Source of the DNA: a virus
Length of the DNA stretch: 39,781 bases
Strand: one strand, 5' to 3'
Virus record (IMG/VR): IMGVR_UViG_3300042991_000617
Location: 1-39,781 of that record
The translations under genes were made by a program, and so were the position numbers. Of the stretch, positions 1,930 through 39,781 are shown in pieces. The notes under the pieces were generated by a model, which saw only the letters and a list, made by a program, of their open reading frames with translations, had not been told where the DNA came from and made no database searches. The stretch's first letter is position 1, and each line of letters opens with the position of its first letter.

Positions 1930-4438
1930 CGAACAGGAGATGCGTAGGGCCGTCGAGGACACGCTTGACAATAACGCGATAGCAACTTTCCTCGATCAGC
2001 AGGCTGGGGGTTTAGGTGGTACAGAAGTCACTCCAGCGGGCGAACTCAGCCCCCAGCTTTTGGAGCAAAACTTCCCCGACCCGAACGCCGCAGAGCAGCA
2101 AGGGGCGCAGTACGCGCAGGTGGATACACCTTTAGATCCAAGAACTGGACAACCATATCCTGACTTCGGGGCACTTCCTCCGGCCCCTGGAGAAACATTT
2201 TCCACACCAGCAGATCCTGGGTTCGACTCACTCGGAGACTATCCGCAGACTCCAGAGAGCGCAGACCCTTTAGCAGATATTGCTGGTTCCATATTTGGAG
2301 AACCCGCGCCAGGTTCTATGGAAGTTCCGCCGAATCCTGCCGCAGATGTTGCGGTAGAGAGAGAAAGACAACGACACCAGACCACCGTACCAACTGAAGA
2401 TCTGACAGAGCAGGAATGGGAAGAAAGATACAATCAAGAAAACGGACTTGGACCAATCGAGGGAGCCCCGGGTCAACCACCAGTTGGAGGTGCTTTCTTT
2501 GGCAACGTCGTAGCTGGTGAACACGGAGAGACGTTTTTCAGAACAGGAAGACGAGCAAGATTCAGAAGGCCAGGGGTTCCGATGGCCATGACCACATGGA
2601 CTCGTACCGGCATTTTGAAATCAAGAGCACCTGACGAGCTTTATGCGTTGGCCAATCTGAAAGAGAATGAGTACCTGAAGCACCTGTATAAAATATCTGA
2701 GATCTCGGCTAATTCAGAAGATGATCAGGCAAGAGTATTGGGACAGCAAGCAGACTGGTTGGCTAATAACGAGGACGAACTTACCAGGTTTATTGCAGAT
2801 AATGACGACAGGCTCAATCAACACCAGCAATACATGCAACAGTGGATGCAGCGCATTGCTTCGAATACCATAGATCCAGATAGGTTCTACTCCTCCAGAG
2901 GCGCAGGGGCTCGGATTGGGTCTTCGGTTGCCGTAGCCCTCGGAACCTTTGCAGCTATCAGATCGGGTCAGCCCAATTACGCACTGAACATAATCAACTC
3001 TGCGATCGATAGAGACATTGAGGCCCAGGTTCAAGACGCCGCCGCTCAAAGGGGAGCATTCAATTCTGGTCTGAATCTCTACTCTATGATGCTTCAGTCT
3101 ACAGGCGATGGGATCGCGGCAAGGGAGGCTGTCCGCGCCCTTCATTTAGATAATACTATTCATCAAGTAGAATCTATAGTTGCCTCGACGCTGGCTCCAA
3201 TAAGAAGGCAAGAGTTCCAAGCGTTTCTGGAAAAACTTAAATTGGATCAGGCCCGGGCAGACATCGCAGCCGCAGAGGCTCAGTTTGCAGTGTCGGTGGA
3301 GACTCAGTACCGGCTCCGCCATCGAGCAGACAGGATGCCCGCGGGATTGTCTCCAATGGACTTTGCGGAACAACAAAGGGCACTGCGAGCAGCCCTTTTA
3401 GCAACCGATGCTCCAAAGCCAAGACAACAGCAAGAAGCAGACGCGGTGGCTGCACAGGCAGCGGCAGATTCTGCGGCTGCCGCCGAACCGTCTACTCCTT
3501 CGACAACCGGGACTCCACCTCCTACTGGAACAGGAAGAAGGCCAGGCCGCATTTCTACGGCTACCCCAGAGACCGAGACGCGGGCACCTACTCCTCCAGT
3601 TGCCCCAACTGACCAACCTTCTGTGATTGTCCACAATGGACAGGAAGTAAATCTTGTTACTCCAGGAACAATGGGGACGGTACCACTGGGAGAACGCACT
3701 GACATGGATGCAGACTCAAATTGGTATGAGTGGAGAGCAACGCGGGGAGATGCCCCAATTGGTGCGTTCCATTATCCAACATACTCAGAAGAGTTAGGGG
3801 GTAATATTGATGTTGTTGGGGAGCCCGTTACGCATAACGGGAGACCAATTACGAACGCCAGAGGGTTTGCCTATTATAGACTCTATGCAGAGCCTCTCGA
3901 AGTTCCGTCTAACACTTTAGCTGCAAACCTAACTCCGCTTCTGCATACTGTCCCAGGCACAACGTTCACTTCTACACCAGAAGCTCACTTTGCGGCATTC
4001 AATGACTTGACTGGCCCACAGAAGGAAACGCTAAGGGGTGCTGTAGAGCGTTACCGGAACGTTATGATAACCGAGAGAGAGCTTATTAGAGAGGCAAGGT
4101 TCCGTTCTGTTTCATGGGATAGTCTCGTTGGAAGCCAGGCTGCCGCGAACTTTACGAGAGCTTACAATTTTATGATTGAGAATCTTCGTTCGCAGCAGTC
4201 AGCGAATTCGATCAGTGTAGCAGATCTAGTCTTCGCTAATCAGGCTTATGGGAGGCCATGGGGTGGTGTAGACTTCTTTGGAAGATACGCGGGGCAGTTA
4301 GACGTTTTGATTAACAGGGCTAGATCGGCCGTTGACTACAATCTAGCTTCTGTCTACTTGCGGAGAAACAACTCTATGGACCCTCAGGCTGGGCAAACCG
4401 AGACTGCGAGACAGCATAGAGAGGGGATGAGAAAGTAA
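1919..4438 (+). CDS. Large internal virion (ejection) protein, 839 aa
   Basis: I chose the ATG at 1919 over the in-frame GTG at 1910, because ACAGG lies at a suitable distance upstream of the ATG; the gene then overlaps the previous one by 11 bases. The first 200 residues are acidic and proline-rich. Residues about 230-470 are predicted to be helical, with a stretch around 340-420 containing repeated Ala and amphipathic helices typical of phage internal proteins. Residues about 490-560 are a Pro/Thr/Ala-rich linker. No lytic or other enzyme motif is visible. Its place between two other candidates for ejection proteins suggests it is the gp15-like member of an injection complex. It could instead be another virion-associated protein. 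Confidence 0.65.
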   Translation: MAGNEQEMRRAVEDTLDNNAIATFLDQQAGGLGGTEVTPAGELSPQLLEQNFPDPNAAEQQGAQYAQVDTPLDPRTGQPYPDFGALPPAPGETFSTPADPGFDSLGDYPQTPESADPLADIAGSIFGEPAPGSMEVPPNPAADVAVERERQRHQTTVPTEDLTEQEWEERYNQENGLGPIEGAPGQPPVGGAFFGNVVAGEHGETFFRTGRRARFRRPGVPMAMTTWTRTGILKSRAPDELYALANLKENEYLKHLYKISEISANSEDDQARVLGQQADWLANNEDELTRFIADNDDRLNQHQQYMQQWMQRIASNTIDPDRFYSSRGAGARIGSSVAVALGTFAAIRSGQPNYALNIINSAIDRDIEAQVQDAAAQRGAFNSGLNLYSMMLQSTGDGIAAREAVRALHLDNTIHQVESIVASTLAPIRRQEFQAFLEKLKLDQARADIAAAEAQFAVSVETQYRLRHRADRMPAGLSPMDFAEQQRALRAALLATDAPKPRQQQEADAVAAQAAADSAAAAEPSTPSTTGTPPPTGTGRRPGRISTATPETETRAPTPPVAPTDQPSVIVHNGQEVNLVTPGTMGTVPLGERTDMDADSNWYEWRATRGDAPIGAFHYPTYSEELGGNIDVVGEPVTHNGRPITNARGFAYYRLYAEPLEVPSNTLAANLTPLLHTVPGTTFTSTPEAHFAAFNDLTGPQKETLRGAVERYRNVMITERELIREARFRSVSWDSLVGSQAAANFTRAYNFMIENLRSQQSANSISVADLVFANQAYGRPWGGVDFFGRYAGQLDVLINRARSAVDYNLASVYLRRNNSMDPQAGQTETARQHREGMRK

Positions 4439-7517: not shown

Positions 7518-7931
7518 ATGAGTTCAACAGTAGTAGCCGAAGCGAGTATCAGTCCTCCGCTTTCGAATCATATCTTCCCCGTAACCCTGGTGGCGGGTAA
7601 CCCGACCACTTCCCTCCAGTTGCCCATCGAGTACGAGGGCCATTGGATTACTCTCCAGTGCGCTGACGGTGTAGGCGGAACTCCCGTGGTTCACTACTCG
7701 TTCTCGCAGACGGCCCAGGTTTGTAACCCGGCTGCGATGCTGGCTCTCGGTCCTCCGCTCGCTCCAGCGGTCAACGGCTGCTGGCGCATCCAGCTCGGCG
7801 AGACGGTCCATTGGGATCTACGCAACTTCCGGCACGACAACGCTCACGCGATCTTCCTGAACCTGATTTGCACTGGGTTCAACGCTGTAGTCCGTTTCAC
7901 AAAGACCGATGGTCCCTTGGCGGCGGTGTAA
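7518..7931 (+). CDS. Small virion-associated protein, unknown, 137 aa
   Basis: A strong AAAGGAGA site precedes this ATG. The protein has no charged helices. It looks mostly beta-stranded, with Thr/Val-rich alternation and four cysteines at roughly positions 49, 69, 88 and 117. It sits between the ejection proteins and the tail spikes, so a small tail or spike-attachment protein is plausible. I do not recognise the family. Its strong ribosome site suggests high output, as expected for a virion part or chaperone. Confidence 0.6.
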   Translation: MSSTVVAEASISPPLSNHIFPVTLVAGNPTTSLQLPIEYEGHWITLQCADGVGGTPVVHYSFSQTAQVCNPAAMLALGPPLAPAVNGCWRIQLGETVHWDLRNFRHDNAHAIFLNLICTGFNAVVRFTKTDGPLAAV

Positions 7932-7933
7932 TC

Positions 7934-9082
7934 ATGAGCAGACGCGGACCATTCGGTGGAGTAGGAGCAGGCGGAGCCCTTCCAGCAACAAGCGTTCGAG
8001 GGGCACCCAGAATCATCGTGGGCAACCAGACGGCTGGAGATGTGGCCACAGAGGTCGATTACCTCGACACGGGCAACGGTGCTCAGCTCGCAGCAGCGAT
8101 CACAGCGGCTGGAGTAGGCACAGCAAGAGACGTTTGGATCAGACCGGGGACTTACAATCTTGATCTAGTAGGGGCTCCGGTAGGACCGATAACTGTTCCC
8201 AGTAACATCATGGTGCGGGGAGCCGGTAGAAGTCTCACTCGTATCGAGACCAAGGATGCGGGGGATGGGAGGGCATTCATTCTAAACAGCGGGTCAACCA
8301 TATCAGATCTCTACGTGAACATATCGAGGCCCGACCCTGCCGGGGGTGGAGTAACAGGAGTATCTCTGATAACTCTCGCGGTTAACGCGACTTGCCAGAA
8401 CGTATCTGTCTTGGCTGAACAGGGTAATCTCTGGAACGCGGCAGATGTTGCCTTGACTCAGCTTCGGCGAATCTTTGATATCTCTTCCAATGCCGGTTCA
8501 GCCAAGTTGATCAATTGCAAAACACCATACGGTGGGGTCACGAGTATCCCGGTCTTCCAACCGGCGGCGGACCTATACATGGTCTACCTACAAGCCAACA
8601 CTTCGTCCCCTCAAATCAATGATTGTTTCTTTTATGGTGCTGATATATGTATCCATTCTTCGAACTTGGGGGGTTTCTCCGCTTCTAGGAACAGTATTTT
8701 TACGAAAAGGAATTTTGTCCTAAACAACGGAAGCGAGAGCACTCTTATCGAGGGCAACGACTGTCATTGTCTGGGAATTGCAAACGGAACAGAACGGAGC
8801 GTCGAGGTCACAGGAGCTGGGCACCCTCGTCTATCGGTTGTAAACAACAGATTCGAGGCCGGTACTCCCACTGTGGCACCGAGTGTGTGTATATCTCTGG
8901 TCGCTGTTAACGGTGCCGTAGTTACTGGTAACAGTATCATAAATTTCGACACGGGTGTTACATTGGACGCTGTTACGGCATTCACCGTTGTAACGGGAAA
9001 CATGTTGAGAGGGATCACTCCTCTTCAACACATCATCGACCTCGGATCAACCAATGAAGTGGCCCACAACATTTTAGGATAA
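7934..9082 (+). CDS. Tail spike, right-handed beta-helix, copy 1, 382 aa
   Basis: The start is the ATG two bases after the previous stop, not an earlier codon in the same frame. After a short Gly-rich leader the protein reads like pectate-lyase-fold tail spikes. An Asp-Val-Trp-Ile-Arg-Pro-Gly-Thr-Tyr block (about residues 60-70) and MVRGAGR (about 94-100) mark the first helix rungs. Repeated short Asn/Ser/Val turns with many Asn residues (SVVNNRFEAG, VTGNSIINF, VTGNMLRG) mark the later rungs. Such trimeric spikes bind or cleave host surface polysaccharide. No catalytic residues can be assigned from sequence alone. The next gene is a clear paralogue. Confidence 0.75.
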   Translation: MSRRGPFGGVGAGGALPATSVRGAPRIIVGNQTAGDVATEVDYLDTGNGAQLAAAITAAGVGTARDVWIRPGTYNLDLVGAPVGPITVPSNIMVRGAGRSLTRIETKDAGDGRAFILNSGSTISDLYVNISRPDPAGGGVTGVSLITLAVNATCQNVSVLAEQGNLWNAADVALTQLRRIFDISSNAGSAKLINCKTPYGGVTSIPVFQPAADLYMVYLQANTSSPQINDCFFYGADICIHSSNLGGFSASRNSIFTKRNFVLNNGSESTLIEGNDCHCLGIANGTERSVEVTGAGHPRLSVVNNRFEAGTPTVAPSVCISLVAVNGAVVTGNSIINFDTGVTLDAVTAFTVVTGNMLRGITPLQHIIDLGSTNEVAHNILG

Positions 9083-9086
9083 GACC

Positions 9087-10346
9087 ATGGCAACGAAAAC
9101 AAGACAACCAGTACATTGTTATCATGGCGCGTTTGCAACCGCGTCTCTTCCAGTGGACCCGAGCGTTCAACCCGGAGACACGGCATTTGACACTACATTT
9201 GGTATACCAGTCTATTATAACAACCTGTCCGTGTGGACCTCGTATGCCGGGGGCTTAGCGCCCGATATCCGAGGCCCACGAATTGTGGTTGGGAATCAAA
9301 CTGCTGGAGACACGATCCTCAATTGCGATTACCTCGACATAGGCGACTGTGCCCAGTTGGCCGTCGCTCTCGCGGCGGCGGGCGGAGGAACGGCCAGAGA
9401 CGTTTGGGTCAGGCCGGGTATCTACGATCTCGGTTTGGTCGGCTCTCCCGTCGGTCCGCTGGTTATCCCAACCAACGTATCGGTACGAGGATCTGGAAGA
9501 CAATCTACGATCATCCGCACCGACGCGATTGGTGACATGAGCGCGTTTGATATGAGTGCGAATTCGCACATGGATAGTCTACGTGTCGAAGTGGCATTTC
9601 CTATCGGCCCCGCTGGCGGAGTCGCCCAGGTTGTCGATCTGAAGGCAGGGGCTACATGCCACAACGTTCGGGTCACATTCATCAACTCTCATTTGTGGGT
9701 TGCCGGAACTGTAGGGCTCACGAACCTTCGGACAGTGTTTCGGGTTTCGAGCGTTGCCTCATCCAGCTACCTGGTGCGCTGCGGGTCTTCTCATAACCCC
9801 ATCGAGTATCCTCCTTCGCTGAATGCTCTTGTGCCTGGCCAGTACATGACCCTATGCCATGTGGGCGCCGGGTCCGATTACCCTCGCGTTCGCGACTGCT
9901 ACCTGGTCGGCGGAGACATAGCCGTCGATATGGTTACAGCAGGAGGGAGCATCACCGAGAACACCTTGGGGTCAACCCTAATCGGTGTCAGGGTTACTGG
10001 CGGAGCCTACCCGGTCTCGATAGCCGAGAATCAGTGGAGAATGACCGCTGCTGCTACTGGAACGGAGCGCGGCCTTGTTGCCACGAACAACTCCAGGCTC
10101 TCTGTGACCGGAAACACCTTTGTCGCGGCGAGTCTGGTGGCCGGGAGTATCGGGATGGAACTCGTGAACATAGATACCTCGGTGATAAACAACAATACGG
10201 TTTCGACCTTCGACTCTGGTGTCGACCTAGACAACGCTTCGGACAACAACGTCTGCACGGGCAACGTGCTGACCGGAATCACTCCTCTTCAACACGTAAT
10301 AAACCTTGGCGCCGGGAACGAAATCGGCCACAACATTGAGGCATAA
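9087..10346 (+). CDS. Tail spike, right-handed beta-helix, copy 2, 419 aa
   Basis: This is a paralogue of the preceding spike: both carry VGNQTAGD, then an Arg-Asp-Val-Trp block, a GSGR or GAGR turn, and almost the same ending (GITPLQH). The DNA is also alike near the 3' ends (a shared cactcctcttcaacac). This copy has about 40 extra N-terminal residues with DTAFDTTFGIPVYYN, which resembles the FFDTTIGAEY segment near the start of the 911-aa fibre that follows. That suggests a shared attachment module. The ribosome site AGGATAAG lies in the 3' end of copy 1. Function (receptor binding or depolymerase) is inferred from fold-level resemblance. Confidence 0.75.
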   Translation: MATKTRQPVHCYHGAFATASLPVDPSVQPGDTAFDTTFGIPVYYNNLSVWTSYAGGLAPDIRGPRIVVGNQTAGDTILNCDYLDIGDCAQLAVALAAAGGGTARDVWVRPGIYDLGLVGSPVGPLVIPTNVSVRGSGRQSTIIRTDAIGDMSAFDMSANSHMDSLRVEVAFPIGPAGGVAQVVDLKAGATCHNVRVTFINSHLWVAGTVGLTNLRTVFRVSSVASSSYLVRCGSSHNPIEYPPSLNALVPGQYMTLCHVGAGSDYPRVRDCYLVGGDIAVDMVTAGGSITENTLGSTLIGVRVTGGAYPVSIAENQWRMTAAATGTERGLVATNNSRLSVTGNTFVAASLVAGSIGMELVNIDTSVINNNTVSTFDSGVDLDNASDNNVCTGNVLTGITPLQHVINLGAGNEIGHNIEA

Positions 10347-13084: not shown

Positions 13085-13294
13085 GTGGATGACTGGCAAA
13101 AGTACCAGCAGCTCGTGCTGTGGAGGCTTGACCAATCTCAGGCTTCCTTGGACGAGTTGCGGATAGAGATGGAGCGCATGAGGACCAACCTTGCCACCCT
13201 CCATGTGCGCTCCGGGGTCTGGGGTCTGCTCGCGGGCACGATCCCGGTCACCATTGCCCTTGCTTACATCGTCATGTCGGGCCTGTTACCATGA
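13085..13294 (+). CDS. XhlA-like holin or membrane lysis protein, 69 aa
   Basis: The GTG start abuts the fibre stop codon (TAAGTG), and no separate strong ribosome site is seen, so translation is probably coupled. Residues 1-42 form an amphipathic coiled coil (LRIEMERMRTNLATLHV). Residues about 45-66 form one membrane helix (GLLAGTIPVTIALAYIV). This coiled-coil-plus-C-terminal-helix layout and length match the XhlA family of small phage holin-associated proteins. It opens a run of five overlapping small genes that looks like the late lysis cassette. Confidence 0.6.
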   Translation: MDDWQKYQQLVLWRLDQSQASLDELRIEMERMRTNLATLHVRSGVWGLLAGTIPVTIALAYIVMSGLLP

Positions 13295-13377
13295 AGGATG
13301 AGGCCGTGGTTGCTCTCTTTGTGCTTCTGGCCGTGGCCGCTTTTGTCACGTTTTGGCTGAAAGGATCTTACCAATGA
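13291..13377 (+). CDS. 28-aa single-helix membrane peptide
   Basis: This gene overlaps both neighbours by ATGA. The product has the charged start MKDEAV, one hydrophobic helix (residues about 6-22) and a short WLKGSY tail. The double overlap and lysis-gene context argue that it is translated. A pinholin, antiholin or holin partner is a reasonable guess from size and topology, but no family is recognisable. Confidence 0.5.
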   Translation: MKDEAVVALFVLLAVAAFVTFWLKGSYQ

Positions 13378-13571
13378 AACTCGATTGGACTGGGCTTGTG
13401 GCCCTGACCGTAATAGTTGCCGGGGCGATCGTCGCTTACTACTTTGGAGCCGACGAACTCTCCACCATGCTCACAGGGATTCTACTGGGTTCGTTCAGTC
13501 CGAGCCCTTGGAGAAAGGCTTTTCGCCAGGGCGATCTCCAGACCAACGAGGAGAGGGTCACTAAACCATGA
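13374..13571 (+). CDS. 65-aa membrane protein of the lysis cassette
   Basis: I chose the ATG at 13374, preceded by AAAGGATC, over an earlier in-frame codon. A membrane helix spans about residues 7-26 and a second, weaker hydrophobic stretch about 30-43. The tail is soluble and basic, then acidic (RKAFRQGDLQTNEERV). Its two-helix topology makes it another holin candidate. It overlaps the 28-aa gene before it and the lipoprotein after it by ATGA, so the set is probably translated as one coupled unit. Confidence 0.55.
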   Translation: MKLDWTGLVALTVIVAGAIVAYYFGADELSTMLTGILLGSFSPSPWRKAFRQGDLQTNEERVTKP

Positions 13572-13984
13572 GGGCTATGCCAATGCTCGTCCCAGCTTTT
13601 GTCTCCATTTGCGCTTTCGGCTGCGGGCCGTCTGCTTACCAGCGGACCCTGACCGTCTCTGCTCACGCTGTGGTGGCTCTGGACCGGGAGCTTGCGCCTC
13701 GGTACGCAGAGGCTGCCGAGCTTGCGCGAGGGGCCACGACCACGCTGGGGGAGTACGAGGCCAGGATGGCTGGTTGGAACGCCGTGGAGGAGGGGCTGGG
13801 TGCCGTGCGCTCGCTTCTGCTTGAGGCCCAGACCGACATGGATTCTGTGCCCGTGGCTTGTATTCTAAAGACGTTCTCTGCGCTGGGGTCGGTGCTTTCT
13901 TCGTTTGGCATCGAGCTGCCCCCGGCGCTCTCTTCTATCATCGGGGCCTTGGGGCCGCTGGGAGGTGTCTGTGTCGAAGATTGA
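13568..13984 (+). CDS. Probable phage lipoprotein, spanin-like position, 138 aa
   Basis: The N-terminus has a short hydrophobic signal (residues about 5-18) ending in Ala-Phe-Gly-Cys-Gly, a plausible but not ideal lipobox with Cys19. The rest is helical (about 25-95), followed by a hydrophobic Gly/Leu/Pro-rich end. In the position after holin-like genes it could be an outer-membrane spanin or another envelope lipoprotein acting in the last step of lysis. That role would imply a host with an outer membrane. The family is not recognised. Confidence 0.5.
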   Translation: MRAMPMLVPAFVSICAFGCGPSAYQRTLTVSAHAVVALDRELAPRYAEAAELARGATTTLGEYEARMAGWNAVEEGLGAVRSLLLEAQTDMDSVPVACILKTFSALGSVLSSFGIELPPALSSIIGALGPLGGVCVED

Positions 13985-14153
13985 CGTATTCGAGGAGGGG
14001 CTTGAAGTCTTGGGCGTGCTTGCGTCTTTGACTGCCAAGTTGGTCAAGGCGCTCAGGTCGGGGAACGAGGAGAACGTGTGCGAGATCCTTTCCTCTCCAT
14101 TGGCCATTCACCTTAAGCGGGTGGCGGCTGAAGGTAAGCGGCCTGCCCCTTGA
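13971..14153 (+). CDS. 60-aa protein at the end of the late lysis cassette
   Basis: The GTG at 13971 has GGGAGG six bases upstream and overlaps the lipoprotein gene end by 14 bases. The product is a small helical protein with an acidic start, hydrophobic middle (LGVLASLTAKLVKAL) and basic end. There is no clear membrane helix. The last 41 bases overlap the convergent caspase-like gene on the other strand. Function unknown. Confidence 0.5.
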   Translation: MSKIDVFEEGLEVLGVLASLTAKLVKALRSGNEENVCEILSSPLAIHLKRVAAEGKRPAP

Positions 14154-14718
14154 AGGGGAACCAGAACCGGTAGTCTGTTCGCAGGGCCTTGGTCCACTTG
14201 ACCCAACCATCGGTGCCCGGCTCGACTACCCAGCGGCCTCCGGTACCGGTTCCATCGAACACCCGGACGTAGGGGTTCTTGCAGCAGTGGCCGGCGGTCG
14301 TGTGGGCGTAGACGGGGATACCTGAGAGGTGGTCCGCGAGCTTGTCTGCGAACCCGCCCTCTCCGCCGGGAGCGGTGCTCGAACCAGTGGAGCAGCAGTA
14401 AAGGATCACCTTGCAGGTCTTGGACCCGGCTTTGGAGATCGCATCGGAGAGTTGATAGGCGGTAGCCAGGTCGAAGCCTAATTGGATCTTGCCCCTCTGG
14501 CCGTGGCAGAAGAAGGCGACCGCCTCCAGGTCTTTGCGGGCGGCGAGGGCGGCGATCGTCTGGTCCCTCTGTTGCTCTCTTGGTTTTGCAATGTTGACCT
14601 TGATCACGGGGTGATCGACCAGGTGGGCCTTGGCGAAGGCGTAGGCTTCTGGAAGGAAGGCTCCGGTGAAGTCGTGGTTTTTGTGGTTACGGTCGGGTGT
14701 GAAGAGCAGAGCTTTCAT
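14113..14718 (-). CDS. Caspase-like (clan CD / CHAT-like) cysteine protease candidate, 201 aa
   Basis: I chose the ATG at 14718 because GGAAGGA precedes it; an in-frame start ten codons earlier lacks a site. The core shows the two-part signature of the caspase fold. A hydrophobic strand runs into Cys-His72-Gly73 (VAFFCHGQ). About 35 residues later another strand runs into Cys108-Cys109-Ser-Thr-Gly (VILYCCSTG), where Cys109 aligns with the ACxTG cysteine of CHAT or C80-type peptidases. After it come FADKLADHL and a VYAHTT strand, as in that fold. The gene is on the minus strand, antisense between late plus-strand genes, and its tail overlaps the 60-aa lysis gene by 41 bases. Target and role (host killing, counter-defence, virion maturation or lysis) are unknown. 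The fold call rests on motifs only. Confidence 0.6.
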   Translation of the reverse strand: MKALLFTPDRNHKNHDFTGAFLPEAYAFAKAHLVDHPVIKVNIAKPREQQRDQTIAALAARKDLEAVAFFCHGQRGKIQLGFDLATAYQLSDAISKAGSKTCKVILYCCSTGSSTAPGGEGGFADKLADHLSGIPVYAHTTAGHCCKNPYVRVFDGTGTGGRWVVEPGTDGWVKWTKALRTDYRFWFPFKGQAAYLQPPPA

Positions 14719-14746
14719 GTTATCGTCCTTCCAGAGTGAGATTACC

Positions 14747-14785
14747 ATGGCGTGTGGAACGAAAAAAGGTAAGGGTGGTTACTGA
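14747..14785 (+). CDS. Possible 12-aa leader-type ORF
   Basis: A 13-codon ORF (product MACGTKKGKGGY) has a GAGTGAG sequence upstream and ends in TGATG, whose ATG starts the next gene. It could be a coupled leader peptide or a true tiny basic protein. The evidence is only the spacing and overlap. Confidence 0.3.
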   Translation: MACGTKKGKGGY

Positions 14786-15033
14786 TGGCAACCGTCGCAG
14801 AAGTAAAAGCAGTCCTCGATACTTTGGAAGCAAGCCCCGGGTTGGAATCATTCCTGGACCACGTTCTCTTTCGGATCAACAAGCGGAAGCTGGGGGCATC
14901 CGATCAGAAGCTCAAGGCCACGGTCAAAGACTTCCTCGAAGCCAAGGTGCCTCAAGCGGACCTCCAGAAGGCAGCAGATGACTATGCGGCCTCAGAGGCG
15001 GCAGCAGTGGCCAAAGCTGTTGAACCGGTCTGA
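14785..15033 (+). CDS. Small helical protein, unknown, 82 aa
   Basis: The product is strongly helical and Ala/Lys/Glu-rich, with no cysteine or membrane segment. The pattern is of a small three-helix bundle (VAEVKAVLDTLEA, then FLDHVLFRINKRKL, then an alanine-rich C-terminal helix). It is the last plus-strand gene before a block of minus-strand genes that converge on it after 22 bases. It may belong to the late transcript beyond the antisense caspase-like gene. Function unknown. Confidence 0.6.
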   Translation: MATVAEVKAVLDTLEASPGLESFLDHVLFRINKRKLGASDQKLKATVKDFLEAKVPQADLQKAADDYAASEAAAVAKAVEPV

Positions 15034-15829: not shown

Positions 15830-16151
15830 TGGACTTGTTCTCCAACTCTGTTACTCGGTCCTCTAACTTTGAAACGTCCTCTCGATATGTAGCCAAGTCC
15901 CTGGCGTCAGCGAGACCGGATGGAGGATATTGCTCCAGTTCCTTGATCCTACGCTCAAGGTCGTACATGCTTTTCTTCATTGACTGCTCGAAGGTTTCGA
16001 ATCTCTCTTCGAGTTCACGTACCTGCATATTGATCTCTCCTCTGAACTCAAGGACCGTTGATATTCCCTTTAGAGCTTCGTTCCTGTTCTCATGGTTCTG
16101 GCTGGAAACAAACAAACGCTCCAGGTTTTTGATTCTCTTCTTCTTACTCAT
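15822..16151 (-). CDS. Coiled-coil protein, 109 aa
   Basis: The product begins MSKKKRIKN and is nearly all heptad-rich helix. One coiled coil covers about residues 35-73 (LEFRGEINMQVRELEERFE and on) and a second about 85-106. A Pro-Pro-Ser-Gly break near 76 separates them. No membrane helix is visible. It starts within the last codons of the endolysin gene and overlaps the 54-aa gene. It may be a scaffold-like or regulatory partner of neighbouring small proteins; this is guesswork from structure only. Confidence 0.6.
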   Translation of the reverse strand: MSKKKRIKNLERLFVSSQNHENRNEALKGISTVLEFRGEINMQVRELEERFETFEQSMKKSMYDLERRIKELEQYPPSGLADARDLATYREDVSKLEDRVTELENKSNV

Positions 16152-16680
16152 AATACTTGTTCCTCATTGGTCTTGTGCATTGAGCCTCGACCGTGCCCCT
16201 CGGTACCGAGTCGTGTGGACCTGCAAAGTGCCTGGCCGTGGGGCAAGGGTCCGGCTCTTGGTTATCGAGTGCTCGGCAGACGACACCGATCAGCTCCATC
16301 CAGTCCTCCAGCCGATCGCTGGGTACCCCTCGTCCAGAAGCTCTGTAAGCCCTCAGACCGGGTCTCCGCCGCAAGGGAAACGAGTAGGCGACCACGAGTC
16401 CCGCGAGGCTCAGGCGCGAACCTCGTGCGACCACGGCACTGTGGCGGCGAACATAGAGGTGGGCCAGGGCAGCGCACTCTCCAGTACGCCAGGAGTCCCA
16501 GCCCGCCTCGCCTACGCAAGAGGCAGCGATCGTCTCGATAGAAATTTCGGTTGGCTGGACAGACGGGCGGGGGGGAGTCGCGGTCTGTCCAGCAACCGGG
16601 GACGAGTATAGCAGGATACCCACCCCAAAAATAGTGAGGGGCCGAGCGAACATTCTGAGAATTTGAGATTTTGGTTTCAT
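16144..16680 (-). CDS. Secreted endolysin candidate, SleB-like cell wall hydrolase, 178 aa
   Basis: The first 31 residues form a signal sequence or signal anchor: basic start, hydrophobic LTIFGVGILLYSS, then Pro-Val-Ala-Gly-Gln. The mature part contains Gly-Glu58-Ala-Gly-Trp followed by ECAALAHLYVRR, matching the GEA...AVA..NR pattern of SleB/transglycosylase-type hydrolases, with Glu58 as likely catalytic residue. It ends in DPCPTARHFAG (144-154), like the ATHW/HFAG block of phage cell wall hydrolases. Export by the host Sec system would allow lysis control by membrane depolarisation. It sits on the minus strand, away from the plus-strand holin cluster. No good ribosome site is visible for the start at 16680; ATG 16653 is an alternative. 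Confidence 0.6.
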   Translation of the reverse strand: MKPKSQILRMFARPLTIFGVGILLYSSPVAGQTATPPRPSVQPTEISIETIAASCVGEAGWDSWRTGECAALAHLYVRRHSAVVARGSRLSLAGLVVAYSFPLRRRPGLRAYRASGRGVPSDRLEDWMELIGVVCRALDNQEPDPCPTARHFAGPHDSVPRGTVEAQCTRPMRNKYYE

Positions 16681-24761: not shown

Positions 24762-25041
24762 AGTTGCTCCTTTTGCGAGCGCAAGTTTCGCACTCGCTAT
24801 CAATATCCACATTAATAAACCATTCCTTGCATGAATAGCACTGGAAACCGAAGCACTCGATTACTTCGAAATTCCATTCCTCGATTGCTTCATCGGGAGT
24901 AGCGCCGTGCCCAACAGGCATGGTCTTTTGTACCGCGTCAACGGCGCCGTCGTACTCGCAGTCACAAGTGCAACGGTAGCCTATAGCAGACCGTTCGGTT
25001 ACGGGCGGCTTTCCGCAATAGTGGCAATCGTGGGGCGTCAT
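24742..25041 (-). CDS. Lar-like zinc protein with an extra Cys4 domain, 99 aa
   Basis: The first 57 residues fit the small Lar (restriction alleviation) zinc fold: CHYCGKPP at the start, a second CTCDC group in the middle, and Pro-Asp-Glu-Ala-Ile-Glu-Glu-Trp-Asn at the end, the most telling motif. The last 40 residues add another two CxxC pairs (CYSC and CETC), a zinc-ribbon-like unit not part of the short Lar form. Lar proteins modulate type I restriction; anti-restriction activity here is a hypothesis. AGGT precedes the ATG, one base after the previous stop. Confidence 0.55.
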   Translation of the reverse strand: MTPHDCHYCGKPPVTERSAIGYRCTCDCEYDGAVDAVQKTMPVGHGATPDEAIEEWNFEVIECFGFQCYSCKEWFINVDIDSECETCARKRSNYDKRSE

Positions 25042-27972: not shown

Positions 27973-28404
27973 ATGTCGAAGAAAGAGTATGTGGAGAACA
28001 GTCAGTCGGCTCGGAGGATCAGGTTCAGGGAGAACGTGGACGAACGGGTTGGCGAGAAGCCCCTAGAGAACCTGGCGACCCCGACCGGGATAGTTTTCGA
28101 GCCCAAGCATAGGGTCAGGAGGATCGTGAAGCCTGAGGTCAGGCTCAAACCTCACATTGGGGTACTTTTGGGGTCTTCCTACAACATAATCCACCAAGAA
28201 TTGAACCGTTTGACTGAAAAACAGGCGAATTTCCAATTGGACGAAGAGGAACTCCGCCGTTTCGTCAAATTGGCTGACGCCACGGTCAAATTGGCGCGAG
28301 AAGAGCGCGAACAGGAGACCCGGGACGATCCTGGGTCGTATTCTGACGAGGAATTGCTGGTTGCGGCGGATACGGCCCGCGTGCGCCTGCTGGAGGGCAA
28401 ATGA
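27973..28404 (+). CDS. Terminase small subunit-like protein (by position), 143 aa
   Basis: AGAGG precedes the ATG. The N-terminus is basic (SKKEYVENSQSARRIRFREN), as expected for DNA binding. The C-terminal half (about 55-135) is a long charged helix pair (LNRLTEKQANFQLDEEELRR, then VKLAREEREQETRDD), typical of the oligomerising part of small terminase or related proteins. It lies two genes before TerL at the start of the packaging operon. No clear helix-turn-helix is visible, so the call rests mainly on location and shape. Confidence 0.5.
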   Translation: MSKKEYVENSQSARRIRFRENVDERVGEKPLENLATPTGIVFEPKHRVRRIVKPEVRLKPHIGVLLGSSYNIIHQELNRLTEKQANFQLDEEELRRFVKLADATVKLAREEREQETRDDPGSYSDEELLVAADTARVRLLEGK

Positions 28405-29141
28405 CCCAATCGACCGAAGACCTACCTATCCTTCTGCGACCCATGACCTCAGAGGACGTTGGCATAGTAGCCAGCACCTGGATAAAATCCTTTAGGCACC
28501 TTGGAACCTTCTCCCGAGGAGTTATGAATCGGGTCTATTACCAGAGGCACCAGGAGCTTTTGGAGCAACTGATTCCGCGCTCCTCGGTCTTCGTCGCGGC
28601 GAACGAAGAGGACCCCAGTCAGGTGGTGGGTTGGATCTGCTACGAACTCTACGAGAACGTGCTCTACCTCCACTACATCTACGTGAAGCTGGCCTTTCGA
28701 AGATTCGGGATAGCCTCCCTGCTGATGGACCAGATACTCAAACACGAACACCGGGGCCTCGTGTTTCATTCCCACAACACCAAAGACTTTGGAGAATGGT
28801 CTCAGGACTATCAATGCAGCGTAGCAACCCCTGAGTTTTGGTACGATCCCTACGTAATGTTTATGGTTTTGAGTAAGACCTGGCAAAACAGAACAATAGA
28901 GGAGGTTCAGTATATCCTCCCGGAGGTTTCACGTGAAACAAAAGACTCTGATCCTGCACTACGAGATCCCCGACCCGAGGGACCCGAAGATTTTCAGGAA
29001 AAGGTTCCAGGAAGATACGAACCTAAGCTGGAAGATATCCGAAGGCATCCTATCCGTTCGTTCAAGCGGCGATTGCGTAAGGACATCGAGCGCCCCGATC
29101 CAGAGTATTATGTGGCAACTGGAAGAGTGGGGACCGACTGA
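28401..29141 (+). CDS. GNAT-type acetyltransferase with C-terminal extension, 246 aa
   Basis: The ATG overlaps the previous stop (ATGA). Residues about 10-150 fit a GNAT fold: LRPMTSEDV at the start, a VGWICYELYENVLYLHYIYV strand pair (in parts), and the acetyl-CoA loop FRRFGIASLLM (about 99-109). The last 70 residues are a charged, proline-containing tail (RRHPIRSFKRRLRKDIERPD) that is not part of the domain and ends at the TerL start (TGATG). The substrate is unknown: a packaging protein, a host protein or a small molecule are all possible. Confidence 0.65.
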   Translation: MTQSTEDLPILLRPMTSEDVGIVASTWIKSFRHLGTFSRGVMNRVYYQRHQELLEQLIPRSSVFVAANEEDPSQVVGWICYELYENVLYLHYIYVKLAFRRFGIASLLMDQILKHEHRGLVFHSHNTKDFGEWSQDYQCSVATPEFWYDPYVMFMVLSKTWQNRTIEEVQYILPEVSRETKDSDPALRDPRPEGPEDFQEKVPGRYEPKLEDIRRHPIRSFKRRLRKDIERPDPEYYVATGRVGTD

Positions 29142-37115: not shown

Positions 37116-39781
37116 TGGCGAAACCCGGCCTCGTAAAACAGATCGTGGATATCCCTTTGGCCGGAGGCATCGATCAGAAGACGACCGAGCAGCTCGTGGA
37201 CTCCCCGTCTCTGATGACGCTCTCGAACCTGGAGATCAAGAAGACGGGTCAGATCCAGAAGCGCAACGGGTACAGCTCGATCGCCATTACTGGCCTGGAC
37301 ACCACGGGTGTCTACCCCAACTCGATCTTCGATCACCACGGCCAACTGACCGCGCTTACGAAGAGCGGGCCTTATGCCCTCGACCGAACGACTTGGAGAC
37401 AAAAGAACACGAGCGGTCCGATCCCTTGCGAGGTGACAACAGTTGGAGCCTACAAGCAAGACGAAAACATCCAGTACGTGGACATTGCCTGCCTCACCAA
37501 CGCTTCTGGGGAGACCCTGATCGCTACTATTTGGGTAACGTCAAACACAGCTAATACTTGGGTATCGATCAAGAACGCAGCAACTGGAGAGAACACTCTT
37601 GATCCGGTTATCATTCCAGGGCTCGGGAGTTTTCCGACGATCGCCGCCGTGAGCGACCGATACTTCCTGGCCTTTGGTACGAATACCATTACAGACGTTT
37701 ACTGCTCAGTGATCGACTGCAATGGGCCACCATACATTGTCGGTGCAGCTGTAGCTCTAGGTGTCGGACCATGCGACGGTTTTGAGACTCACTCTATTTC
37801 TTCGAGCGCGTTCTGCAATCTGATCGTTACCACTCAAGCAACATTCACAACTCACGTTCACCGAATCAGTGACGCAGGAGTAGTGACCAACTCGCTTGGT
37901 CCATTCGGCGGGATTCGAGGTTCTGAGTTTGGCAGAACCGTCTTCCACAACACGACGCTCAATAGGGTAATGTTTGGGGTCGCGAATGCCTCTGGAGCGC
38001 CGGGCGTTCCACTGGTTCATACGTTTTACTGTGACGACGCTTACGCGGCGGCCAGTGCTGGGACATATATTTACTCAGCCGACCGCACAGCCTTTGCTGG
38101 AGCTTCATATATCGGAGCCCCTTGCATAACTATCTGCCAGAACTCGGCGGCTGGGTCCATGATGCTGTTTTCCTCCATGGGCCGGACTATCCCTACGAAT
38201 CGCATGATTCAATGGAGTGGCCTCGATCCTGTCGGTGCTCCAGTCGGCACTCAAGGTATTCAGTACCATTGGATGCTAAACTCGAAAGCGTTCCAGGGGA
38301 TTGAAAACACCCCTTGCGTCTCGATCATTACTCTTGATGAGTTCAATACTCCAGTCTGCCTTCTTGTTTCAACATTTGAGTACGTAATAGGAGCTGTCAC
38401 GACTGCGGCACTTAAGCCGTTTGCCAGGGTGCTCCAGGATTCGATTGACACCGGTTGGCCAACGTCTACAGCGTTTAGAGGAAACGGACGCTCCGTTGCT
38501 CCAATCAGCTCAAACCGCTTTGTCTCGTCCTTCGTGCAAGTGTTACTGGATGGATATAAGCCGACTCCACTCGCCATCGCGGATTGGACTACTCAAAAAA
38601 CAGCAATATCACTTGCAACCATTGATCTCAATGTTGATCCGTTGTCTACGGCGGGCTTGTCCGATCTATCCGTGTTCTCAGGCGGCGTCTGCTCCTGTTA
38701 CGACGGCGAGTATCTTGCCGAGGTCATACCGCACACTGCTCCCCGCATAAGTACTATATTAGAGGTTGATACATTTGGACCTTTGCCTGCGGGCTACTTT
38801 GAGAATAGAACATTCAAATATGTAGCTATCTGGTCATACAATGATGCAGACGGTAATGTTCACAGAAGCAATCCATCCTCGATGGGGTCGATAGTCATCA
38901 ATGCTCCACTACTTAACTACTGTTCTTCCATAGAGCTTACGTTAGATCTCCCCCCTCCTTCGGCCATCAACGGCGGGTCGAACAGGAGATTGCTTTGTGA
39001 GATATATCGAACGCCAGGGAGCGGGGACATCTTTTATCAGGTAGCAGTTATTCAACCAAATCCAATGGCTGCTCCAGCAGAGTCCGAAATATTCTATTCC
39101 GATACATTGTATGACATACCTGCTCCAAATCCCTTAACACTCCGTCCCCTTCTCTATACGACCGGCGGAATACTCGGGAACCTCTGCCCTCCATCCTTCA
39201 TCGACCTTGAGAACTGCAACAACCGCCTCTGGGGCATATCAGGAGAAGACCAGACTGAGGTCTGGTATTCGAAGCTTAACCAGAAGGGTCTCGGTCCTGA
39301 GTTCAACGGAAACCTGACGATCAGAGTGCCTTCTGGGACTGATCGGCTGACAGCCCTCGCTGCAATGGACGACAAGCTGATCGCGTTCTCCAGAAGCAAG
39401 ATCTTCTACATCGCCGGAGACGGACCCAACAACACGGGGCAGGGTGGGGACTTTCTCGGTCCAGTGCTCATCTCTTCGGACGTTGGCTGCCAGAACCGGA
39501 ACTCCGTGGTGTCAGGACCATTTGGGGTCACGTTCCTTTCGGACAAGGGCATCTACCTGCTCGACCGTGGTCTGAACGTTCAGTACATCGGTGCCCCGGT
39601 CGAGACGGAGACGACCACGTTCTTCTCTGCGGCGGGAGGTACTCTTACTTCCAGCGTGCTCGTGGAGAACGCCAACCAGGTTCGGTTCTCTTACGGGGAT
39701 TCGCTCTCTCCAAAGACTCTGGTCTACGATTTCTTCCACGAGGCTTGGTACGTCTGGTTCGAAAACGGTCCCGCCATCGAC
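37115..39781 (+). CDS. Tail nozzle-like structural protein, N-terminal part (continues at base 1)
   Basis: The ATG overlaps the previous stop (TGATG). I read through the frame without a stop to the end, 809 codons before the overlap, and it continues in frame at base 1 to 738. The whole is about 1054 aa. The N-terminus (PLAGGIDQKTTEQLVDSP) and NLEIKKTGQIQKRNGY are typical starts of this kind of nozzle or hub protein. Later NNRLWGISGEDQTEVWYSK and SKIFYIAGDGPN give repeated beta-propeller-like blades. It likely closes the tail tip and carries the spikes. Confidence 0.8.
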   Translation, partial: MAKPGLVKQIVDIPLAGGIDQKTTEQLVDSPSLMTLSNLEIKKTGQIQKRNGYSSIAITGLDTTGVYPNSIFDHHGQLTALTKSGPYALDRTTWRQKNTSGPIPCEVTTVGAYKQDENIQYVDIACLTNASGETLIATIWVTSNTANTWVSIKNAATGENTLDPVIIPGLGSFPTIAAVSDRYFLAFGTNTITDVYCSVIDCNGPPYIVGAAVALGVGPCDGFETHSISSSAFCNLIVTTQATFTTHVHRISDAGVVTNSLGPFGGIRGSEFGRTVFHNTTLNRVMFGVANASGAPGVPLVHTFYCDDAYAAASAGTYIYSADRTAFAGASYIGAPCITICQNSAAGSMMLFSSMGRTIPTNRMIQWSGLDPVGAPVGTQGIQYHWMLNSKAFQGIENTPCVSIITLDEFNTPVCLLVSTFEYVIGAVTTAALKPFARVLQDSIDTGWPTSTAFRGNGRSVAPISSNRFVSSFVQVLLDGYKPTPLAIADWTTQKTAISLATIDLNVDPLSTAGLSDLSVFSGGVCSCYDGEYLAEVIPHTAPRISTILEVDTFGPLPAGYFENRTFKYVAIWSYNDADGNVHRSNPSSMGSIVINAPLLNYCSSIELTLDLPPPSAINGGSNRRLLCEIYRTPGSGDIFYQVAVIQPNPMAAPAESEIFYSDTLYDIPAPNPLTLRPLLYTTGGILGNLCPPSFIDLENCNNRLWGISGEDQTEVWYSKLNQKGLGPEFNGNLTIRVPSGTDRLTALAAMDDKLIAFSRSKIFYIAGDGPNNTGQGGDFLGPVLISSDVGCQNRNSVVSGPFGVTFLSDKGIYLLDRGLNVQYIGAPVETETTTFFSAAGGTLTSSVLVENANQVRFSYGDSLSPKTLVYDFFHEAWYVWFENGPAID
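39542..39781. repeat. Right copy of the contig-end overlap
   Basis: This is the 240-base overlap with the left end, differing at four positions. See the left copy for the interpretation as one circular genome. Confidence 0.9.

Follow-up and report, generated by a model that had tools for sequence, protein, structure and literature searches.

A predicted stand-alone caspase-fold protease related to DUF4347 in uncultured phages

The window analysed here is the whole of a viral DNA record of 39,781 nucleotides (IMG/VR record IMGVR_UViG_3300042991_000617). Its minus strand encodes a predicted small stand-alone cysteine protease of the caspase fold (clan CD), 201 aa in length (Table 1). We regard the protein family as a previously undescribed form of a known protease superfamily, one that stands alone and is carried by phages. 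According to our best reading, the protein might be a caspase-fold cysteine endopeptidase, which is carried as a mobile accessory gene and cuts host protein near the end of infection. This statement, taken as a whole, is given about an even chance of being right. The protease activity, the host target, and the timing are the parts of it that we infer.

The existence of the gene is confirmed. An earlier note on this DNA had described a 201-codon minus-strand frame with the motifs FFCHGQ (His72) and YCCSTG (Cys109), and direct reading of the sequence bears out both the frame and the motifs. The codon usage of the gene (0.245 bits/codon) lies within the range of the long genes of this phage (0.13–0.34), whose antisense frames all score below 0.1 bits/codon. 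The gene is far beyond chance, because the protein matches DUF4347, belongs to a 36-row family with an invariant His and Cys, is under purifying selection, and has a confidently predicted fold. No sigma-70-type promoter was predicted at the gene, and no terminator; the promoters of the host may be of another type. The protein has no signal peptide.

Table 1. Features of the protease gene and of its surroundings in the window.
Feature	Position	Strand	Basis or remark
Stand-alone caspase-fold (clan CD, DUF4347-related) cysteine protease-like protein, 201 aa	14113..14718	-	Sequence, Pfam, alignment, AlphaFold2 (AF2), Foldseek
His72 codon, predicted catalytic His	14503..14505	-	35/35 in family
Cys109 codon, predicted nucleophile	14392..14394	-	36/36 in family; also all aligned cellular forms
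His139 codon, where the strand that follows the Cys strand ends	14302..14304	-	36/36 in family
Shine-Dalgarno GGAAGGA, 7 nt upstream of the start codon (ATG, 14718)	14726..14732	-	Sequence read
60-aa ORF, tail-to-tail 41-base overlap with the protease gene	13971..14153	+	ORF list, codon usage
Lipoprotein-like protein, 138 aa, lipobox FGC; possible outer-spanin-like lysis gene	13568..13984	+	Function inferred
Transmembrane protein, 72 aa, holin-like	13353..13571	+	Function inferred
Coiled-coil and transmembrane protein, 69 aa, lysis-cassette-like	13085..13294	+	Function inferred
Credible 82-aa ORF on the opposite flank of the protease gene	14785..15033	+	Codon usage (score 0.271)
Membrane-anchored protein, 178 aa, homologous to protease neighbours in L032, L034, and L039	16144..16680	-	

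The window contains genes for a terminase, a portal protein, a weakly matched major head protein, a primase/helicase, an exonuclease, and a RuvC-like resolvase. Its first 240 bases are repeated directly at its end (39542–39781) with 4 mismatches, so the record is probably a whole genome that can be joined circularly end to end. Read as a circle, the gene order suggests one stretch of plus-strand late genes that starts near 28 kb, crosses the joined ends, and reaches 15 kb, and a leftward block that extends from 19.5 to 15.06 kb. Several other features were observed. The products of two adjoining plus-strand genes (7811–9082 and 9087–10346) share a similar stretch (VGNQTAGD...), match NosD-type beta-helices weakly, and are perhaps duplicated tail spikes. 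A tRNA-Cys gene (24773–24861, minus strand) lies in a region of lower G+C. An acetyltransferase-like gene (28401–29141, plus strand) directly precedes the gene of the terminase large subunit (TerL).

DUF4347 (PF14252) was the sole Pfam family that the protein passed, with 28.0 bits against a cut-off of 24.6 (E=2e-6). The match is partial, as it spans positions 22–105 of the 164 profile positions, and it covers the part from His to Cys. Three of ten family members match DUF4347 at E<=1. Searches of PHROGs, NCBIfam, PADLOC, and the PDB sequences gave no useful match, and plain protein searches with the window protein found nothing among viral contigs, genome contigs, phages, and plasmids. The family was uncovered by a DNA-pattern scan for TAGHxxxNPxxRxF, which returned ten matches, nine of them true homologues and one spurious. 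In a subsequent profile-guided search, 30 viral contigs and 6 genome-assembly loci were recovered. The earlier note had proposed looking for the same gene in related phages; it was found in 31 uncultured-phage contigs besides the window (L015 included). A tblastn search of 50,697 phage records with three family members identified no homologue. The terminase relatives of the window phage also gave no match to the protease, and this empty answer is weak. No stand-alone caspase-fold protease family of this type was found in PHROGs or in the cultured-phage collection, and no description of a phage clan CD protease family was found in the literature searched, which covered few subscription journals.

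The 36-row alignment showed that Cys109 and His139 are invariant, and that His72 is invariant in every row that has the position (Table 1). His139 is possibly a residue of the substrate pocket. Asn148, Gly81, and the GG(D/E)GGFAD block are nearly invariant. At position 128, the window protein alone has Ala, and the other 35 have Arg. The dN/dS values of about 0.09–0.27 in unsaturated homologue pairs indicate purifying selection. The family gene of L042 (9557–10709) runs across two overlapping frames, which is a frameshift or a sequencing error. In L033, an IS605 OrfB/TnpB-looking transposase (2855–4045) lies just upstream of the family gene.

The fold was predicted by AlphaFold2 on the 36-row alignment (pLDDT 93.8, pTM 0.91). 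The order of elements is E3-8, H16-31, E39-41, H47-59, E64-71, H84-97, and E98-108. In this model, His72 directly follows the core strand 64-71 and Cys109 directly follows the strand 98-108. The earlier note had proposed a caspase-type fold with these two residues in the catalytic places, and had suggested a structure search against clan CD; the predicted strand order, the Foldseek matches, and the invariance of the residues all support the proposal. The top match in the PDB was chain G of 9qpe, the type VI protein Tce1 of P. aeruginosa (E 2.8e-4, TM 0.53/0.59). It was followed by the cysteine protease domain of TcdB (peptidase C80), and more weakly by caspase-3 and the CHAT protease Csx29. 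The viral fold search returned distant caspase-like proteins of giant viruses, with weak scores. The sequence and structural results agree, since Tce1 is PA0256, which was earlier described as a DUF4347 protein (PMC8262886). An enzyme of the caspase-fold cysteine protease type is thus a well supported prediction, in which we place high confidence.

Membership in the better known clan CD families was not supported. The CHAT identity put forward in the earlier note fails in the family sense, as there is no Pfam CHAT match at E<=10 and the fold match to Csx29 is weak; the protein is DUF4347 by sequence. C14 (caspase/metacaspase) was rejected, with no Pfam match and a weak fold match to caspase-3. 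C80 also gave no Pfam match, and its fold match is partial. The protein shares the general caspase fold with CHAT (Csx29) and the caspases (TM about 0.34–0.41 of the query), but has no TPR or sensor domain, and no CRISPR or defence neighbours were seen. It shares the caspase-like core and the His/Cys dyad with C80, the peptidase of large clostridial and MARTX toxins and the second-best of the solved matches, but only about 105 columns were aligned, with a TM of 0.29 of the query. The likeness to DUF4347/Tce1 is closest, including a Pfam match above the cut-off, the best structural match, and the same order of the His/Cys dyad. However, the phage protein is a stand-alone domain of 201 aa without the N-terminal extension of Tce1, and it has conserved motifs of its own, GG(D/E)GGFAD and HTTAGHxxxNP.

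Cellular relatives were found in the phylum of the myxobacterial assembly (18/379 genomes) and in that of the planctomycete assembly (3/392 genomes). Most of the cellular copies lie inside large proteins; in myxobacteria, the domain is at the C-terminal side, within frames of 415–2416 aa. It is fused to glucosaminidase and SH3 in L052, to LysM, Hydrolase_2, and PG_binding in L068, to the eCIS core in L064, and to SH3 in L069. Toxins associated with eCIS are marked by the eCIS core domain, DUF4157 (PMC11297309). The His/Cys dyad is kept in all 14 further cellular sequences, together with His139 and nearly always Asn148; these domains are homologous to the phage type. In the tree, the multidomain cellular forms (support 0.87) are separate from a clade of the phage proteins and a few stand-alone chromosomal forms (support 0.92). 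Among these stand-alone chromosomal forms, L060 has phage-like neighbours (judged by eye) in a myxobacterial chromosome, which suggests that some of these phages may infect myxobacterial hosts. Two stand-alone copies in bacterial assemblies, L050 (a 617-kb contig) and L053, do not have the second conserved His (position 144). HlyD/RND efflux-like genes follow both of them, and a LysM/PG_binding gene lies just before that of L050.

The gene is very probably an accessory gene of the moron type, as it is patchily distributed and its place and strand differ between related phages. The proteases of L022 and L043 are 82% identical, compared with 33–65% for the flanking homologues, and the gene lies at another place and on the other strand. 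The recurrent sites are module borders. TerL lies within about 3.5 kb in L023, L024, L026, L027, L028, L039, L040, and L044. An SLT transglycosylase gene adjoins the protease gene in L030, L037, L042, and L046, and lies 3.2 kb off in L041; an SLT-like protein adjoins it in L035, as detected by a custom profile whose members included the L035 protein. These SLT-linked copies belong to a clade of ten phage copies (support 0.99), most of which are near cell-wall enzymes. Within 1.5 kb of the gene, small membrane proteins are over-represented (22/149 versus 43/784, p=3e-4), although related loci do not count independently in this comparison. The G037 copy is the last gene of the leftward operon, where it comes immediately after an exonuclease-like gene, and 3 bases separate its end from the final late gene of the rightward strand. 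The context alone fixes no role, because the gene is near packaging genes in some phages and near lysis genes in others.

One neighbour was considered as a fixed partner. The protease and one neighbouring secreted protein are the only genes common to L032 and L039, and relatives of this secreted protein are also encoded near the protease gene in L034 and in the window (16144–16680). The window protein has conserved EAG, EC, and NPxPxAxHF motifs, no Pfam or PDB match, and a predicted fold of pLDDT 66 with no structural match. A Hydrolase_2 identity, read from the motifs, was not supported. An obligatory partnership was rejected, as seven of the ten contigs with the secreted protein are without the protease; the three contigs with both are those that supplied the query.

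Under the best reading, the gene would be carried as a moron-like element at the borders of late modules and in many cases next to lysis genes. The small enzyme would be made in the host cytoplasm, a location suggested by the missing signal peptide, and would use its His72/Cys109 dyad to cut a single host protein or a small number of them, which would help in taking over the cell or finishing it off around the end of infection. In a comparable way, bacteria deliver the same domain to other cells as the payload of injected proteins. The host-directed reading is preferred because the domain occurs in delivered effectors elsewhere and because the gene shows the behaviour of a mobile accessory. 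A role in host killing or counter-defence, as raised in the earlier note, is plausible, since the relatives in bacterial genomes resemble toxin domains that are delivered into cells. The properties of Tce1 bear on this reading in both directions. Its authors propose a His186/Cys240 dyad and a putative cysteine protease, and Tce2, the second effector of the Tce1 system, lost its toxicity in yeast when the predicted active-site Cys was changed (PMC13323088). Tce1 was toxic in the E. coli cytoplasm in one study (PMC8262886); however, it was not markedly toxic to E. coli in the later one (PMC13323088), which speaks against the host-directed reading.

The gene could instead assist lysis, with the protease reaching the periplasm together with the endolysin and cutting envelope proteins for a fuller burst. 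This is unlikely, yet it is the strongest of the alternatives. The cell-wall enzymes around the ten-copy clade, the enriched small membrane proteins, the secreted neighbour shared by L032 and L039, and the fusion of bacterial forms to cell-wall hydrolases would all fit. However, the window gene is on the strand opposite to the lysis genes, the G037 copy ends a leftward operon, and another group has the gene near terminase genes. The secreted neighbour was not confirmed as a cell-wall enzyme by Pfam or fold, and its co-occurrence with the protease comes from the source contigs of the query. Slightly less probable is a counter-defence protease, which would cut a host immune protein and block abortive infection. 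A mobile, patchy, accessory gene with its active site under purifying selection is the pattern expected of such a protein. Nevertheless, the PADLOC models did not match it, and a scan of neighbouring genes recognised none with a known role in defence or anti-defence.

The antisense layout of the window was described correctly in the earlier note. Plus-strand ORFs of 60 and 82 aa lie on the two sides of the protease gene, so it is truly nested antisense, with the 41-base overlap at its tail. The note had called the overlapping ORF the last lysis gene; the upstream genes do resemble holin and lipoprotein genes, as they code for a lipobox protein and two short proteins with transmembrane segments, but no function was recognised for the 60-aa ORF itself. 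The note had further proposed that late read-through would make antisense RNA. Such RNA might silence the gene late in infection. Such regulation would be compatible with any other function and would suit the nested position, between ORFs with no predicted terminator in between. However, the orientation is not conserved. Some homologues share the strand of the late genes, others close the leftward block, and others again have been moved and inverted, so the antisense position is local, one of several arrangements rather than a conserved switch. A conserved antisense arrangement was thus rejected, and the regulatory role is left unsupported and improbable. Processing of phage proteins, such as the maturation of capsid or internal virion proteins, is the least probable alternative: the gene is near TerL or portal genes in the eight contigs listed above, but it moves and is not fixed beside capsid genes, its location is a different one in many phages of the set, and the terminase relatives of the window phage gave no match.

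The family links phage accessory genes to the effector arsenal of the contractile injection systems. A broader proposal, which is speculative and to which we give about one chance in four, is that phages took up, or gave rise to, the protease payload domain of bacterial contractile-injection effectors as a free-standing lysis-stage enzyme. If this is true, these phages would kill or open the host by means of a protease, a strategy that has not been described in phages. If the enzyme is active, its substrate would reveal a host protein that phages gain from cutting, either a vulnerable essential or envelope protein or a defence protein.
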